64,000 bases of DNA from an uncultured bacterium (GCA_903832635.1 CAILCF010000003.1:1-64000); one strand, 5' to 3'. Positions 2,999 to 21,634 are shown, counted from the first letter of the stretch. Translations and numbers: made by a program. Notes: generated by a model from the letters alone, not told the origin.

Positions 2999-4096
2999 AT
3001 GGCAAAAGCCACAACAATGGATGAGTTGCTCGCTGCCGAAGGTGACAGCGTCAAGCAATTGACACAAGGGGATTCAATCGTCGGGACGATTTTATCAATT
3101 AGAAAACACGAAGTATTAGTTGATCTGGGAGCACATGGTATTGGATTAGTTCCACGTAGGGAAGTAGGATTTTATCGAAACCTAAATATTGGTGATGAAA
3201 TCGCAGCCAGTATTGTTGACACGGAACTTGATAATGGCTATTCATTACTTTCACTACGTAAAGCCGCTAAAGATCGTGGTTGGGACGAAGTAATAACCAA
3301 AATGGAATCTGGTGACATTATCGAAGTTTCACCGTATGACGCCAATCGTGGCGGCTTACTGGTTGAATACGACGGCGTAAGGGGCTTCCTGCCTGTTTCT
3401 CAGTTATCGGCTGAACATTATCCTCGCGTTGGTGGCAGTGATAAAGATGAAATTCTACAAAGATTAAACGTTTTGATTGGGAAAAACTTGACTGTTCGAA
3501 TCTTGGATTGTGACCGGAAAGCCAACAAACTGATATTTAGTGAAAAAGAAGCTATTAAAGACGGTTTGGCTGCAAGGTTTGAAAAACTTACAGTAGGAGA
3601 CTCAATAAAAGGGGTTGTGACTGGGGTTGTTGATTATGGTGTATTCGTCAATGTCGAAGGTATTGAGGGGCTTGTTCATATCAGTGAAATTAGCTGGGAA
3701 CGCGTAAATAATCCAGGGGATTACGTAAAAGTCGGACAGACAATCGATGCGAAAATTATTGCTATTGATAAGGACCGACTAAGCCTAAGTATCAAACAAC
3801 TATCTGAAGATCCATGGATGACCGAAGTCGATCAGTTCAAACCGGGGGATAAAGTCGAAGGGACAATAACTAGGATTACGCCATTCGGTGCTTTCGTCCA
3901 AATTAGTCCGGCAGTTGAGGCCTTGGTGCATGTTAGCGAACTTGGTGAGGGTGATGATGTTGATCCGGAAAAAGTCTTTACGTTGAACGAACGCAAAGAA
4001 TTCGTAGTACTTGATGTCGAGAAAGAAAGTCGAAAAATTTCTTTAAGTTTAGTCAACAAATCCAAACCAAAATCGAAAACTAAAGCTAAAAAGTAA
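2999..4096 (+). CDS. rpsA: 30S ribosomal protein S1
   Basis: Four S1 (OB) repeats, e.g. GDSIKGVVTGVVDYGVFVNVEGIEGLVHISEISW, GDKVEGTITRITPFGAFVQI. Confidence 0.95.
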   Translation: MAKATTMDELLAAEGDSVKQLTQGDSIVGTILSIRKHEVLVDLGAHGIGLVPRREVGFYRNLNIGDEIAASIVDTELDNGYSLLSLRKAAKDRGWDEVITKMESGDIIEVSPYDANRGGLLVEYDGVRGFLPVSQLSAEHYPRVGGSDKDEILQRLNVLIGKNLTVRILDCDRKANKLIFSEKEAIKDGLAARFEKLTVGDSIKGVVTGVVDYGVFVNVEGIEGLVHISEISWERVNNPGDYVKVGQTIDAKIIAIDKDRLSLSIKQLSEDPWMTEVDQFKPGDKVEGTITRITPFGAFVQISPAVEALVHVSELGEGDDVDPEKVFTLNERKEFVVLDVEKESRKISLSLVNKSKPKSKTKAKK

Positions 4097-7816: not shown

Positions 7817-9763
7817 CTATAGTAGGCTAGTCGGATCCAGTTCGAATTGCCAATATTTACTTGGTAAGTATTTTAATACATCAATCAAATATTCACGTTT
7901 GGGACTTTTTAACACAATTTGCCAACGAAATGTACCATGCTGTCTTTCATAAAATGCAGGAGTTGGTCCAAATAATTGAACATTTGGGTTCGCTTTCAAT
8001 TGCAATTCTTTTATTAATTTTTTTGCATTACTTATTGCAGATGCCTCAGATTTATAAACACAGGTAAGTTGTAACAAGAAAGTAAATGGGGGGAACAATC
8101 CTTTCCTTCTTTCTTTCAAAGTATTTTTGTAAAATTCTTGATAATTTTGAGTCAAACCAAAAACAATACTTGGGTGAGTCGGTCGGTATGTTTGGACAAT
8201 AACCCGTGTCTCTTTATCGTTTCGTCCAACCCGTCCAATTACTTGGGCTAAAAGTTGATATGTACGTTCATTCGTATTAAAGTCAGGCAGCGATAAGCCG
8301 GTATCGGCTTGTATTACACCGACTGTTCGAAGATGTGGCAAGTCCAAGCCCTTAGCGATTATTTGTGTTCCTATTGCTATATCAATTGTGCCGTTGTATA
8401 AATCATCATATCTGTTATTTACAGCTTCTTCATTTGTGTTATCAGCATCAAAACGTGCGATATTTGCTTGTGGGAATAACTTTTTTAATTCAGTTTCGAT
8501 AAGCTTCGTTCCAAGCCCTTTATGAATAATATCAACACCACCACAACTTGGGCATAAAGTAGGTACAGATTCACTATATCCACAAATATGGCAAAGAAGT
8601 TGATGTTTATCGCCATGTAAAGTAAGTGGCAGGAAACATGTTTGACATTCAGCTATCCAGCCACAATCACTACAAAGAGTTGTATTTGCACTACCCCGTC
8701 GATTGTGAAATATTAGTGTTTGTTTATGTTCCTGAAGAGTGCTTAAGATTTGATTTACTAGTACTTTCGATAAAAACCGATGTCCAGTTAAAAGATTTGA
8801 ATGATTCGTCATATCGATTAGTGAAATTTTTGGAGGAATGCTCCCTGGTCTGGCGACAGAGTTAAGCGTCAAGACTGGAAGATTTGATTTTTCAGCCAAG
8901 TATCGGTCAGTGATATTTGGAGTAGCGCTACCAAATATAACCTTGGCTTTATGGAATCTTCCAAGCATTGTTGTAGCGCGCAAGGCAGAGTATTTTGGTG
9001 CCTGTTCCTGTTTGTAACCTGGCTCGTGAGCCTCATCAACAATAATAGTGCCAATATTTCGTAGCGGACTAAACAGTGCGGATCTTGGGCCGATTACGAT
9101 TCTTGGGGAAGTGCTTATTAAAGCTTGATGCCATATTGTCTGGCGTTCGGACTCTTTCATTTTTGAGTGTGTGACAAGTAAATTGTCAAAATGGTTTGAA
9201 AAGTCTGATATTAATTGTGAAGTTAGAGCAATTTCTGGCACTAGAATAATCACTGATTTACCAATCGAAATTGACTCTTTTGCGATTTTTATATATAGCT
9301 CAGTTTTACCTGAACCGGTAACACCTTGCAATAATAATGTTCCGGAATCTATTTTTGACAACGTATCTAATACATTTAACTGCTCTTTATTGAACACAAT
9401 ATTTGTTCGTTCTCGATTTACTATCGGTTTTTGGATATAAGTGGTGTTACGACGCTTTTTCTGGATTCCGACTGGAATAATCAGACGAAGAACAAGTGCT
9501 AATGGAGTTAAATAATATTTCGATAACCATAAAGATAACTCTAACAATTCGTCGGGGATTGGGTTTGACTCAATTATTGACAACACAGGCTTTGTTGGGT
9601 ATTTTGGTTTGGACGTAGTACGAAGTACAATTCCAACTATTTGCTTTTTACCCATTTCAATCATGACAATTTGGCCGATTAAAAGCGGGGTTTTTGATGA
9701 ATAAGTAAAAGTCTCGCTGTCAGAACGAATAATCTGTCTGGGTGCTACCTCGTAATAGTGCAT
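7817..9763 (-). CDS. priA: Primosomal protein N' (replication restart helicase PriA)
   Basis: GVTGSGKTELY, DEAH, zinc cysteines CSDCGWIAECQTC...CHICGYSE, helicase C motifs. Confidence 0.95.
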   Translation of the reverse strand: MHYYEVAPRQIIRSDSETFTYSSKTPLLIGQIVMIEMGKKQIVGIVLRTTSKPKYPTKPVLSIIESNPIPDELLELSLWLSKYYLTPLALVLRLIIPVGIQKKRRNTTYIQKPIVNRERTNIVFNKEQLNVLDTLSKIDSGTLLLQGVTGSGKTELYIKIAKESISIGKSVIILVPEIALTSQLISDFSNHFDNLLVTHSKMKESERQTIWHQALISTSPRIVIGPRSALFSPLRNIGTIIVDEAHEPGYKQEQAPKYSALRATTMLGRFHKAKVIFGSATPNITDRYLAEKSNLPVLTLNSVARPGSIPPKISLIDMTNHSNLLTGHRFLSKVLVNQILSTLQEHKQTLIFHNRRGSANTTLCSDCGWIAECQTCFLPLTLHGDKHQLLCHICGYSESVPTLCPSCGGVDIIHKGLGTKLIETELKKLFPQANIARFDADNTNEEAVNNRYDDLYNGTIDIAIGTQIIAKGLDLPHLRTVGVIQADTGLSLPDFNTNERTYQLLAQVIGRVGRNDKETRVIVQTYRPTHPSIVFGLTQNYQEFYKNTLKERRKGLFPPFTFLLQLTCVYKSEASAISNAKKLIKELQLKANPNVQLFGPTPAFYERQHGTFRWQIVLKSPKREYLIDVLKYLPSKYWQFELDPTSLL

Positions 9764-17117: not shown

Positions 17118-17582
17118 ATGCCAAAGTACAATATCGGTGACAGTCGAGTAATTGAGTCACGCGAAGTAAGTGATGGGGTTACAATCCGACGGCGTCGAGA
17201 ATCTCCTGATGGTAAAAGGTTTACGACATACGAAAGAATTGAGCGACCGAACTTGGCAGTTATTAAAAAAAGCGGAGTCAGGGAATTATTCGATCGTGAT
17301 AAATTATCAATTGCAATAAAGCGTTCAGTTGGTAAGTTTTTTGTATCCGAAGTAGAAATTGAAGAGATGATTGCCGAAATCGAGGATTCACTTTATGCAA
17401 TCGGGGAAAATGAAATCACTTCAAAACAAATTGGCGATATAGTTTTAGACGAACTACTTAAACGTAACGAGGTTGCCTACGTAAGGTTTTCAAGTGTTTA
17501 TCACAAATTTAAAACATTGGATGATTTCGTGAAAATACTCGAACAAAGAACGAATAAAAAAATTAACACCGAGATTAACTAA
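17118..17582 (+). CDS. nrdR: NrdR-like protein (ATP-cone) with cysteine-free N-terminal ribbon
   Basis: RVIESREVSDGVTIRRRRESPDGKRFTTYERIERPNLAVIKKSGVRELFDRDKL matches NrdR layout; zinc cysteines absent. Confidence 0.85.
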   Translation: MPKYNIGDSRVIESREVSDGVTIRRRRESPDGKRFTTYERIERPNLAVIKKSGVRELFDRDKLSIAIKRSVGKFFVSEVEIEEMIAEIEDSLYAIGENEITSKQIGDIVLDELLKRNEVAYVRFSSVYHKFKTLDDFVKILEQRTNKKINTEIN

Positions 17583-17842
17583 TGCGTGTTGTTGTACTTT
17601 ACAGAGATAATACCGATTATGCACGCACGGTTATTGAATTTCTTCATGACTTTGAACATCAAACAGGACATAGTTTAGAGATATTGGACCCGGACTCCCC
17701 AGAAGGTATGCTTTTTTGTGATACTTATGGGATTTTTGACTTCCCAACATTAATCGCTACCACCGAAGACGGTGTTATGCAAAATACCTGGAATGGATTA
17801 CCGTTACCTACTATTAGTGAGCTAAGTTACTACGTCCAATAA
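17582..17842 (+). CDS. Thioredoxin-fold protein lacking CXXC
   Basis: Conserved FPTLIAT cis-Pro loop; no CxxC. Confidence 0.55.
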   Translation: MRVVVLYRDNTDYARTVIEFLHDFEHQTGHSLEILDPDSPEGMLFCDTYGIFDFPTLIATTEDGVMQNTWNGLPLPTISELSYYVQ

Positions 17843-17878
17843 AATATTTGTCATAATCCAGATAAACAGATATAATAA

Positions 17879-18068
17879 CTAGCCAGAACGTCCTTATATA
17901 AGGTGAGTGGCTATCAACCGCGAATGTTTTTCGGAAGAAATCAAATATGAGATTAGAACCGAACGGAAATCGTCCCGAAATGACGAAAAATAAGCGCTAA
18001 AAAGAATCTCTTTTTGGAAACTGGATGGTACCGTCCGCCGCAGCTTTTGCAAAGGTGGATTCCAGTGA
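17879..18068 (+). promoter_or_regulatory. T-box riboswitch leader of ileS (translational-type candidate)
   Basis: Antisequestrator-like fold: CTGGA(18021-18025)/TCCAG(18061-18065) closing, TGGTACC bulge (18026-18032), TCCGCC(18034-18039)/GGTGGA(18054-18059); upstream hairpin GTGG-CTATCAA-CCGC (17907-17921) with ATC specifier in loop. Confidence 0.75.
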
Positions 18069-18104
18069 CTAAATGGGGATTTTTGTTAACTTGAAAGGTA
18101 GACA

Positions 18105-20972
18105 ATGCAATTTACATCAGGAACTAGGCGACGAGCAGTAGAATACGAAAAAGATCTTGTGACAAAATGGAAACAGAACAAGACTTTTGAAAAATCGGTA
18201 GATTTTAGACCGGCTGATAACTCATATGTTTTTTATGATGGGCCACCTTTTATCAGTGGCTCACCTCATTACGGTACATTGTTACCAAGTATCGTCAAAG
18301 ATGCAATTCCTCGTTATCAGACCATGAAAGGCAAGCGAGTTGAGCGTGTTTGGGGCTGGGATTGTCACGGTCTACCGGCAGAAAATTTCGTTGAAAAAAA
18401 ACTTGGGATTAAAGACAGGCATGAAATTGGTACAAAAATAAGTTTAGCTGACTATATTACCACTATTCGTGAAAGTTTGATCCAAACCAGCAATGAGTGG
18501 GAAGATACGGTTAATCGTATTGGTCGTTGGGTAGATTTCGATGGTGGTTATAGAACCATGGATAAAGACTACATGGAGTCTGTATGGTGGGCCTTTAAAG
18601 AGCTCTACGATAAAGGCAAGATTTACGAAGGTGAAAAAGTTTTAATGTATGACACACAGTGGGCAACACCTTTGTCAAAAGCCGAAGTAACAATGGATAC
18701 GGGTGCATATATCGAAGTTACTGACCCTAGTATTTATGTGGAATTTAATTTAAAAGACGAAGACGCGAAACTCTTAGTATGGACAACAACTCCATGGACT
18801 TTGCCTGCAAATACAGCAATTGCCATTAATAATGATATGAATTATGTTGAGGTCGAACTTAATGATGGTAATAAATTTATTCTGTCTGAAAATTCACTCG
18901 ATACGGTTTTAACAGATGAAAAACATAATTTAATAGTTTACAAAATCATAAGGAATATAAAAGGCGAGGATTTGGTTGGGAAATTATATGAACCTTTATT
19001 TGGTGATCGTGGTAAAAACGCACAAAAAATTTGGTCAGCCGATTTTGTTACAACCGATTCCGGAACGGGGATAGTTCATATTGCACCAGCATATGGTGAA
19101 GATGATTTTATTTTGGGTCAAGAAAACAAAATCCCAGTTGTTCATGTTCTTGACGAATATGGTAAATTCACTGAAACCGAATGGAAGGGTGAAGATGTTT
19201 GGGAAATAAATAAAACGATAGCTAGAACATTAAAAGACCGTGGTATAGTCTGGAAAATTGAATACATCCAACACGAATATCCGCATAATCCCAGGACAGG
19301 CAACCGCTTGATGTACCGAGCACATCCTAGTTGGTTTTTTGATATTGATGGTCAACGCACGCAGATGCTAGCAGAGAATTCACAGCATATTAATTGGTTC
19401 CCTGAATATATTAAACATGGTCGTTTTGAGAAAACAATTGAAACAGCGCCTGACTGGAACTTGTCTCGTGATCGTTTCTGGGCTACGGCAATGCCTGTTT
19501 GGAAAGGAATTGATTCAAAGGGTAAAGAACATATCAAAGTTGTTGGCAGTTATGCTGAATTGAAGGAACTTAGTGGAGTTGAACTTGAGGACTATCATCG
19601 CCCATGGATAGATGACGTAAAGTTTGAAATTGACGGCATAAAATACCAGAGAATCGACAAGGTTTTAGATTGCTGGTTTGAAAGCGGAAGCATGCCATTT
19701 GCACAGTTCCATTATCCATTTGAAAATGTAAAAAAATTTGAAGAAAACTTCCCAGGTGATTTTATAGTCGAATACGTAGGACAGGTGCGAGCATGGTTTT
19801 ATTATGTACACGCCGTTAGTGTCGGTCTGTTTGGTCATAATGCCTACAAGAATGTCATTGTAACTGGGACTATCGCCGGTAATGACGGTCGAAAAATGAG
19901 TAAAAGTTATGGTAATTTTACCGACCCTAACGAGTTAATGGACCAATTCAGTGCAGATAGTTTGCGGTATTTATTGCTATCCAGCCCATTACTAAACGGT
20001 GAAGATTATAGTTTGCAAAACAAAGACGTCAGCGATATTGCCAGAAAACTTAGCATGATATGGAATATGTATGATTTTTTCACAATGTATGCCGAAGTTG
20101 ATAAGTGGGAATTCAATGGCGAAATAGTTGACCCAACCGAACACCTCGACACACCACTGGACCTATGGATAGTCAGTCGTGTACACCAACTGGTTGCCGA
20201 AGTTGAAAAAAATATGGATCTTTACGATATCCCTAATGCGATGAAGCCGATTTTGCCATTTATCGAAGATGCCAGTAACTGGTATGTCAGACGCAGTCGT
20301 AGACGCTTCTGGAAAGCTGGAGACGATGCCGACAAAAATAACGCCTATTCAACCCTGCATTATGTTTTAGTGCACCTAAGTATGGTATTAGCGCCATTTA
20401 CACCGTTTTTGGCAGAAGAACTTTATCAAAAAATGACGGGTGGTGAAAGTGTTCATCTGTTAGACTGGCCAAAAGTAGGTCATATTAATGAACTTGTCGT
20501 TAATGAAATGGAACAAGTTCGTGATTTTGTTAACCAGGGGTTAAGCATTCGTGCCAAAGAGCATCAAAAAGTACGCCAGCCACTTGCTAGCGTTACGATA
20601 CCGAAAATTGGAAACTTTGTTGATTTTGATAGCATATTGCGGGAAGAGCTGAATGTTAAAAAAGTTAGAATTGGTGATAAATTTGAACTTGATATGGTGA
20701 TAACGCCCGAACTAAAGAGCGAAGGTATTGCCCGCGAAGTAATTCGGCACATTCAAAGTGCCCGAAAAAATGCAGGACTTAATATTGATGACCGGATAGA
20801 ATTGTCACTTATAACGAATAATAATGAATTAGAAAAATCTATTAAAACCCACATCAAGATAATCACAGACGAGACACTAGCAATAAAATTCTCTAAATCT
20901 AATCATTTGAGTTATAGCGTAGATGTCAAGATTGACGACTTTGATTTGAAAATATTACTTCAAAAGGCATAA
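18105..20972 (+). CDS. ileS: Isoleucyl-tRNA synthetase, eukaryote-like/type 2
   Basis: GPPFISGSPHYGTLLPSIVKDAIPRYQTMKGKRVERVWGWDCHGLP, KMSKSYGNFTDPNELMDQFSADSLRYLLLSSPL. Confidence 0.95.
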   Translation: MQFTSGTRRRAVEYEKDLVTKWKQNKTFEKSVDFRPADNSYVFYDGPPFISGSPHYGTLLPSIVKDAIPRYQTMKGKRVERVWGWDCHGLPAENFVEKKLGIKDRHEIGTKISLADYITTIRESLIQTSNEWEDTVNRIGRWVDFDGGYRTMDKDYMESVWWAFKELYDKGKIYEGEKVLMYDTQWATPLSKAEVTMDTGAYIEVTDPSIYVEFNLKDEDAKLLVWTTTPWTLPANTAIAINNDMNYVEVELNDGNKFILSENSLDTVLTDEKHNLIVYKIIRNIKGEDLVGKLYEPLFGDRGKNAQKIWSADFVTTDSGTGIVHIAPAYGEDDFILGQENKIPVVHVLDEYGKFTETEWKGEDVWEINKTIARTLKDRGIVWKIEYIQHEYPHNPRTGNRLMYRAHPSWFFDIDGQRTQMLAENSQHINWFPEYIKHGRFEKTIETAPDWNLSRDRFWATAMPVWKGIDSKGKEHIKVVGSYAELKELSGVELEDYHRPWIDDVKFEIDGIKYQRIDKVLDCWFESGSMPFAQFHYPFENVKKFEENFPGDFIVEYVGQVRAWFYYVHAVSVGLFGHNAYKNVIVTGTIAGNDGRKMSKSYGNFTDPNELMDQFSADSLRYLLLSSPLLNGEDYSLQNKDVSDIARKLSMIWNMYDFFTMYAEVDKWEFNGEIVDPTEHLDTPLDLWIVSRVHQLVAEVEKNMDLYDIPNAMKPILPFIEDASNWYVRRSRRRFWKAGDDADKNNAYSTLHYVLVHLSMVLAPFTPFLAEELYQKMTGGESVHLLDWPKVGHINELVVNEMEQVRDFVNQGLSIRAKEHQKVRQPLASVTIPKIGNFVDFDSILREELNVKKVRIGDKFELDMVITPELKSEGIAREVIRHIQSARKNAGLNIDDRIELSLITNNNELEKSIKTHIKIITDETLAIKFSKSNHLSYSVDVKIDDFDLKILLQKA

Positions 20973-21262: not shown

Positions 21263-21634
21263 ATGACTGACGCAGAATTTGACGAATTAATTACCAGGGC
21301 AATGAACGAATTGCCCCAAAAATATATTAAAGGATTGCAAAATGTAGCGATTGTAATGGCTGACGAACCAACGCCAGTACAGATGCAAAAGATGAAAATT
21401 GATGGTAAACACCTTTTATTGGGTCTTTACGAAGGGATTCCACTGACCCAACGGGGATCTAATTATACCTTCGTACTTCCGGATAAAATCACCCTTTTTA
21501 AATATTCAATCATAGCAGTATCACGCGACGATGAACAATTATTCGAGCAGATAAAAAGAACACTGTGGCATGAAATTGCGCATTATTATGGCTTGAATCA
21601 TAAAAGAATCGATGAAATTCAAAACAAAAAATAG
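21263..21634 (+). CDS. Zincin-like metallopeptidase family protein
   Basis: TLWHEIAHYYGLNHKRI (HExxHxxxxxH). Confidence 0.8.
   Translation: MTDAEFDELITRAMNELPQKYIKGLQNVAIVMADEPTPVQMQKMKIDGKHLLLGLYEGIPLTQRGSNYTFVLPDKITLFKYSIIAVSRDDEQLFEQIKRTLWHEIAHYYGLNHKRIDEIQNKK

Follow-up and report, generated by a model that had tools for sequence, protein, structure and literature searches.

The leader in front of ileS in the window (the whole 64,000-nt stretch of DNA analyzed) raises three questions: whether it is a T-box, through which output it would control ileS, and where it came from. The original prediction proposed a translational isoleucine T-box with an ultrashort specifier stem, acquired together with a type-2 IleRS from an actinobacterial host. 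The gap between an 86-amino-acid gene (17582-17842) and ileS (18105-20972) is 262 nt long, and all of the elements named in that prediction are present in it; the parts of the leader described below, and ileS, lie on the plus strand. Judged by sequence and covariation, the leader (about 17884-18093) is a genuine T-box. The genome of 793 kb in 5 contigs belongs to a tiny, probably epibiotic bacterium (Candidatus Saccharibacteria), and the closest named relatives of its ileS are found in Candidatus Saccharibacteria MAGs. Descriptions of T-boxes cover Firmicutes, Actinobacteria, and a small number of further phyla, and Patescibacteria are mentioned neither in a survey (PMC2494555) nor in a database paper (PMC7778990). 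Searching the open-access literature for T-boxes together with Saccharibacteria, TM7, Patescibacteria, or the candidate phyla radiation retrieved nothing relevant, an absence that is weak evidence.

A promoter-like site, TTGTCA-17-TATAAT (17848-17876), matches the consensus at 11 of 12 positions and places the expected start at about 17883 to 17885, just before the leader. Alone, this site is weak, with a shuffled region averaging 1.7 sites; among the relatives, 62 of 75 leaders have a −10 element that matches at 5/6 positions or more and precedes the specifier stem, against 21.7 expected from shuffling. The Stem I region (17887-17928) has an outer helix, AACGU/AUGUU (17887-17891/17924-17928), and a kink-turn-like GA/GA sequence (17905-17906/17922-17923), which is exact in 42 of the 75 leaders. 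An extra hairpin, CCUU-AUAU-AAGG (17892-17903), is inserted at the usual position of the kink-turn bulge. Hairpins immediately 5' of GA occur in 43 of 75 leaders, in the clade of the window and in others, against 11.4 expected from shuffling, and in many leaders without the extra hairpin, GA is preceded by a plain bulge of some 4 nt. Such an insertion at the kink-turn GA would make a k-junction, as in the TPP riboswitch, where a three-way junction is likewise built on kink-turn GA pairs (PMC4005666); unlike the latter, the junction here lies within a T-box Stem I and is predicted from sequence only.

The specifier hairpin GUGG-CUAUCAA-CCGC (17907-17921) has a covarying helix and carries the AUC specifier at 17913-17915. 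In all 75 leaders, a 4-bp stem closes a 7-nt loop that contains AUC and mostly reads YUAUCAN. The 30 tRNA loci examined in the genome include one tRNA-Ile gene, with the anticodon GAU and the end CACCA, which fits both AUC and UGGU. The predicted hairpin is present and conserved, and the reading of the leader as an isoleucine T-box with the specifier in the apical loop of an ultrashort stem is supported.

Stem II (17930-17963) consists of UUCGG/CCGAA around an S-turn-like internal loop, with AAGAAA opposite AUUAGAA (consensus, AGUAGAA); the relatives show double-sided changes in four of the five lower pairs and in both upper pairs. It is followed by the Stem IIA/B pseudoknot (17964-17986), formed by CG/CG (17964-17965/17976-17977) and UCGU/ACGA (17970-17973/17983-17986), in which three of four pseudoknot pairs are double-changed, one such change being in the window itself. 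The purine string AAGCG (17992-17996), Stem III (17997-18005/18009-18017, loop AUC), and AA (18018-18019) together match the published RRRxG-Stem III-AA discriminator motif (PMC7583486), and Stem III is paired in 99.4% of cells, with two double-changed pairs in 20 leaders. The antiterminator (18020-18066) contains helix A1 (18020-18025/18061-18066), the bulge UGGUACC (18026-18032), and helix A2 (18033-18039/18054-18060). In the same 20 leaders, A1 is 100% paired, with four of its six pairs double-changed, and the G18033.U18060 wobble with which A2 starts is G.U in 18 and G-C in 2. The helix CUGGA/UCCAG, the 7-nt bulge, and the upper helix UCCGCC/GGUGGA were all in the original prediction and are both visible in the sequence and conserved. 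The leaders of L033, L034, and L036 lack Stem II and keep the IIA/B pseudoknot, and the L016 leader lacks IIA/B.

Two checks had been suggested for the T-box, covariation across related genomes and a search with the Rfam T-box model. Of 60 relatives searched at the DNA level, 30 had the leader, and covariation was counted on an oriented alignment of 20 leaders and 38 pairs. The T-box fold was paired in 97.0% of cells, with double-sided changes in 20 of the 38 pairs; none of 500 shuffles matched the real alignment, and pairing was only 28 to 49% when the partner was slid by 1 to 3 columns. Region 17997-18090 folded with a z score of −5.4 (0/200 shuffles equal), and the entire 231-nt leader folded with one of −2.8. 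The Rfam model RF00230 scored the window leader at 14.9 bits, below its gathering score of 93, with the alignment covering the right region and UGGUACC aligned, and at the gathering score there was no T-box in the window or in the whole genome. The low score is read as a limit of the model, since RF00230 expects a long Stem I, which is absent in class III. The specifier, the UGGN(ACC) bulge, the G.U pair at the A2 base, and RRRxG-Stem III-AA, by which a T-box is recognized, are all present.

The leader is similar to the class III T-boxes of Nocardia farcinica and Mycobacterium tuberculosis ileS (PDB 6UFM and 6UFG). In both, Stem I is short, lacks the elbow-binding module, and presents the isoleucine specifier in its apical loop; the kink-turn, Stem II with an S-turn, the IIA/B pseudoknot, Stem III, and an antiterminator-type helix with a UGGN bulge are also shared (PMC10482949, PMC10651847). 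However, the specifier loop as drawn here has 7 nt, compared with 5 to 6 nt in the literature, and Stem II is said to be required (PMC10482949), whereas some relatives lack it. The clade of the window also adds the hairpin in the kink-turn bulge. In addition, known class III T-boxes are mostly translational and act by sequestering the Shine-Dalgarno (SD) sequence, whereas the antiterminator of this leader lies inside a terminator that uses the 3' arm of Stem III as one of its strands.

This nested terminator (18005-18087) has its 5' arm at 18005-18017, the 3' arm of Stem III, and its 3' arm at 18069-18081. The strand after A1, GACUAAAUGGGGAUUUUU, pairs with AAUCUCUUUUUGG in the 3' arm of Stem III, and the terminator therefore encloses A1/A2, so that Stem III and the terminator exclude each other. 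It ends in the U-tract UUUUUGUU (18080-18087), in which UUUUU (18080-18084) comes directly after the 3' arm; the earlier statement that no U-tract terminator follows the T-box is contradicted by this helix, which lies below the antiterminator. A terminator scan missed it because the scan allows loops of only 3 to 8 nt. The two terminator strands change jointly in other lineages (AAUCACUUCUUUUG/CAAAAGAAGUGAUU, AGUCAUCUCGUUUG/CAAACGAGAUGACU, and AAGCAUCAUGUUUG/CAAACAUGGUGCUU), and the extended helix plus A1/A2 is paired in 94.8% of cells on the alignment, with double changes present. A gap-free count with arms anchored on A1 (66 distinct leaders, positions 3 to 16) gave 85.5% pairing, against a mean of 67.8% and a maximum of 72.4% in arm-swap controls, and 189 doubly changed cells, against an arm-swap maximum of 114; in this count, as in the U-tract counts, the 3' arm was located partly by means of the U-tract, and the leaders come from related MAGs and are not independent. 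With the same qualification, 74 of 75 leaders have at least 6 U residues among the 8 nt that follow the helix, compared with a background in which such a stretch begins within a 9-nt span at 2.7% of positions, and the U-tract onset lies 13 or 15 nt past A1 in 54 of 75 leaders and tracks arm length.

In all 75 leaders, computed energies favor the terminator fold over Stem III plus the antiterminator, by a mean of 11 kcal/mol, for isolated RNA and ignoring tRNA, pseudoknots, and transcription kinetics. The terminator base in the window is weaker than those of many relatives, with one U-U mismatch and several G-U pairs. A local terminator of the usual type was rejected for the Saccharibacteria ileS leaders; the 3' hairpin averages −1.9 kcal/mol, and the strand that covaries with the 3' arm is located 5' of A1. 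The leader shares RRRxG-Stem III-AA, UGGNACC, and the G.U pair with class I/II transcriptional T-boxes, such as those of Bacillus subtilis tyrS and glyQS, and would also share their output by intrinsic termination. In the class I/II T-boxes, the terminator draws its 5' strand from the 3' sides of A1 and A2, which makes terminator and antiterminator mutually exclusive (PMC7583486). In contrast, the terminator 5' strand here is not taken from the antiterminator; both states retain A1 and A2, the terminator destroys Stem III, and Stem I is ultrashort.

Taken together, these features suggest that the leader probably acts as a class III-type, tRNA-Ile-sensing T-box that controls ileS through transcription attenuation. 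The transcript would begin at its own promoter, its AUC specifier would pair with the GAU anticodon of tRNA-Ile, and its UGGU bulge would pair with the ACCA end of the uncharged tRNA. Uncharged tRNA-Ile would latch Stem III and its purines and so permit transcription. The end of charged tRNA-Ile would not fit the bulge, which would leave Stem III open to invasion; the emerging strand 18069-18081 would then pair with the 3' arm of Stem III, and the long hairpin with its U-tract would terminate transcription. The real competitors would thus be Stem III and the terminator base, with the antiterminator helix present in both states. The two states would still be exclusive, because an isolated antiterminator without Stem III does not bind tRNA appreciably (PMC7583486). 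Against this reading, a 3' end seated in the bulge could conceivably be compatible with the extended helix.

The attenuation reading has to be weighed against three others. That the leader is a decayed or chance structure with no functional switch is barely credible. The Rfam score of just 14.9 bits and the nearest named ileS relative, L031 (87% identity), which lacks any leader, would fit decay, but the strong covariation, the invariant specifier, the promoter-like site, and conservation at 76 of 79 loci speak against it. A translational T-box as in Actinobacteria, in which charged tRNA would let a sequestrator hide the SD sequence of ileS, is unlikely here. It has a precedent, since the actinobacterial ileS T-boxes with ultrashort stems act on translation initiation (PMC1262725, PMC7583486) and class III T-boxes mostly do so (PMC10482949), and the start codon lies just 18 to 55 nt past the U-tract onset. 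However, the SD sequence GAAAGG (18093-18098), which precedes the AUG at 18105, pairs negligibly with the leader. The mean probability of pairing between the SD sequence and the upstream leader is 0.06 in 71 leaders and 0.02 in the window and exceeds 0.3 in just 4 of the 71; the SD sequence of the relatives, AGAAAGGA, lacks the GGUA required for pairing with the T-box; and the covarying helix and U-tract end upstream of the SD sequence. SD sequestration, the usual class III output, was rejected, the proposed pairing of the T-box GGUACC with the SD sequence is not conserved, and the evidence favors transcription termination over the translational switch of the original prediction. Control could also be dual or coupled to translation, with the nested hairpin mainly delaying the polymerase or destabilizing the RNA and termination being partial or Rho assisted. 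The A/U-rich basal helix, with its G-U pairs and mismatch in the window, would agree with this, but the strong folding energies and the tight U-tract, present in 74 of 75 leaders, fit ordinary intrinsic termination, and we regard dual control as improbable as well.

The origin of the leader and its enzyme was approached through the enzyme and through the distribution of the leader. The ileS product (18105-20972) has 955 amino acids and scores 791 bits with TIGR00392 (cutoff, 621). It scores 649 to 584 bits against PDB entries that include eukaryotic cytoplasmic enzymes and 1ile and 328 to 207 bits against the groups of 1ffy, 8c9e, and 8wnf; the sorting of these entries into IleRS2 or IleRS1 is in part our assumption. 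By this ranking, the IleRS is type-2-like, closer to the eukaryotic cytoplasmic/IleRS2 enzymes than to IleRS1, in agreement with the prediction of a type-2 enzyme downstream. In an IleRS scan of genome contigs, the named loci were all patescibacterial, and the plasmid matches listed were mostly staphylococcal mupA. In the Saccharibacteria IleRS (L031 to L110), another residue takes the place of the final His of the HIGH motif, with HHGT, HYGT, HFGT, and similar versions in 72 of the 72 motif matches found; the window has HYGT, and most of the other patescibacterial IleRS seen have HxGH or HxGN. A small zincin-like metallopeptidase (PF06262) is encoded downstream of ileS at 21263-21634.

A covariance model, R1, was built from the aligned leaders of the relatives and found exactly one copy in the window genome. 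A second, weak model match in the window, at 8711-8894 (16.3 bits), was rejected as chance; it overlaps a 648-amino-acid open reading frame (ORF) on the opposite strand and lacks the T-box bulge. R1 matched upstream of ileS at 76 of 80 named loci, or 76 of the 79 evaluable Saccharibacteria loci (L095 is truncated), and the leader was absent before ileS in L031, L039, and L091. Across the phylum, R1 matched in 70 of 380 genomes, and RF00230 matched in 123 of 362 Patescibacteria genomes at an E value of ≤0.001, with 13 above the cutoff and none in the four sampled genomes of the genus of the window. Outside the class, the matches precede ileS (AUC), valS (GUC), thrS (ACC), lysS, and non-discriminating aspS (GAC/AAC); the specifier could not be placed in the lysS leaders. 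The agreement between specifier and gene independently supports the view that R1 finds T-boxes. The nested topology occurs before ileS, valS, and thrS out of class, and other leaders have ordinary or adjacent terminators.

The distribution bears on the idea that the leader and IleRS were acquired jointly from an actinobacterial host and still operate in the way they do in the donor. A short Stem I resembling that of the actinobacterial ileS T-boxes (PMC10482949) and a type-2-like IleRS would suit such a transfer, but the leader is present at 76 of 79 evaluable Saccharibacteria ileS loci, T-boxes precede several other aminoacyl-tRNA synthetase (aaRS) genes in other patescibacterial classes, and the output differs from the actinobacterial one. 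The first two of these findings, with the T-boxes in the other classes matching in architecture, fit an old, vertical possession. Since the leader is general in Saccharibacteria ileS and occurs before several aaRS genes in the wider phylum, a recent joint transfer is not the simplest reading; the distribution does not support that part of the original prediction, which we consider very unlikely.

We hold it moderately probable that the nested terminator, which would compete with Stem III or, in leaders that have no Stem III, occupy the purine-string region itself, represents an output logic not described in the literature covered, in which charging would be read through the latching of Stem III or its purines by tRNA and not through the stability of the antiterminator. 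In the same reading, it would be the standard switch of Saccharibacteria ileS, recur before ileS and thrS elsewhere in Patescibacteria, and form part of a T-box control of aaRS genes across a phylum that is itself missing from the published T-box surveys covered. T-boxes before ileS, valS, thrS, lysS, and aspS would mean that host-dependent bacteria can measure amino acid supply by RNA alone. In the nested terminator, nature has set up a test of which helix decides the switch, and the leaders of relatives that lack either Stem II or Stem III show what a minimal T-box would be; with both at hand, experiments in vitro can directly address how much of a T-box is required.

Several loci differ in the arrangement of the leader. 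The leaders of L145, L149, L150, L175, and L176 have no Stem III hairpin, and the 5' arm of their terminator covers the purine-string region (AAGUCCAC/GUGGAUUU type). In L178 and L169, T-boxes precede genes for non-discriminating aspartate--tRNA(Asn) ligases, one with an AAC (Asn) and one with a GAC (Asp) specifier. The nearest named relative of the window, L031 (IleRS 87% identical), has about 40 nt before ileS (3640-3687), from which the leader is cleanly absent, a natural loss. About 30 loci (L032, L035, L048, L062, L085, and some 25 others) have one small variable gene between the leader and ileS, as if this interval were an operon slot for variable genes. In L034 (3659-3942), helix A2 of the antiterminator carries in its apical loop an 81-amino-acid ORF with a GIY-YIG domain (PF01541); the sequences on both sides of the ORF lengthen A2, and this T-box still has its terminator arm and U-tract. 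A close relative, L036, has a long A/U hairpin alone at the site of this ORF.
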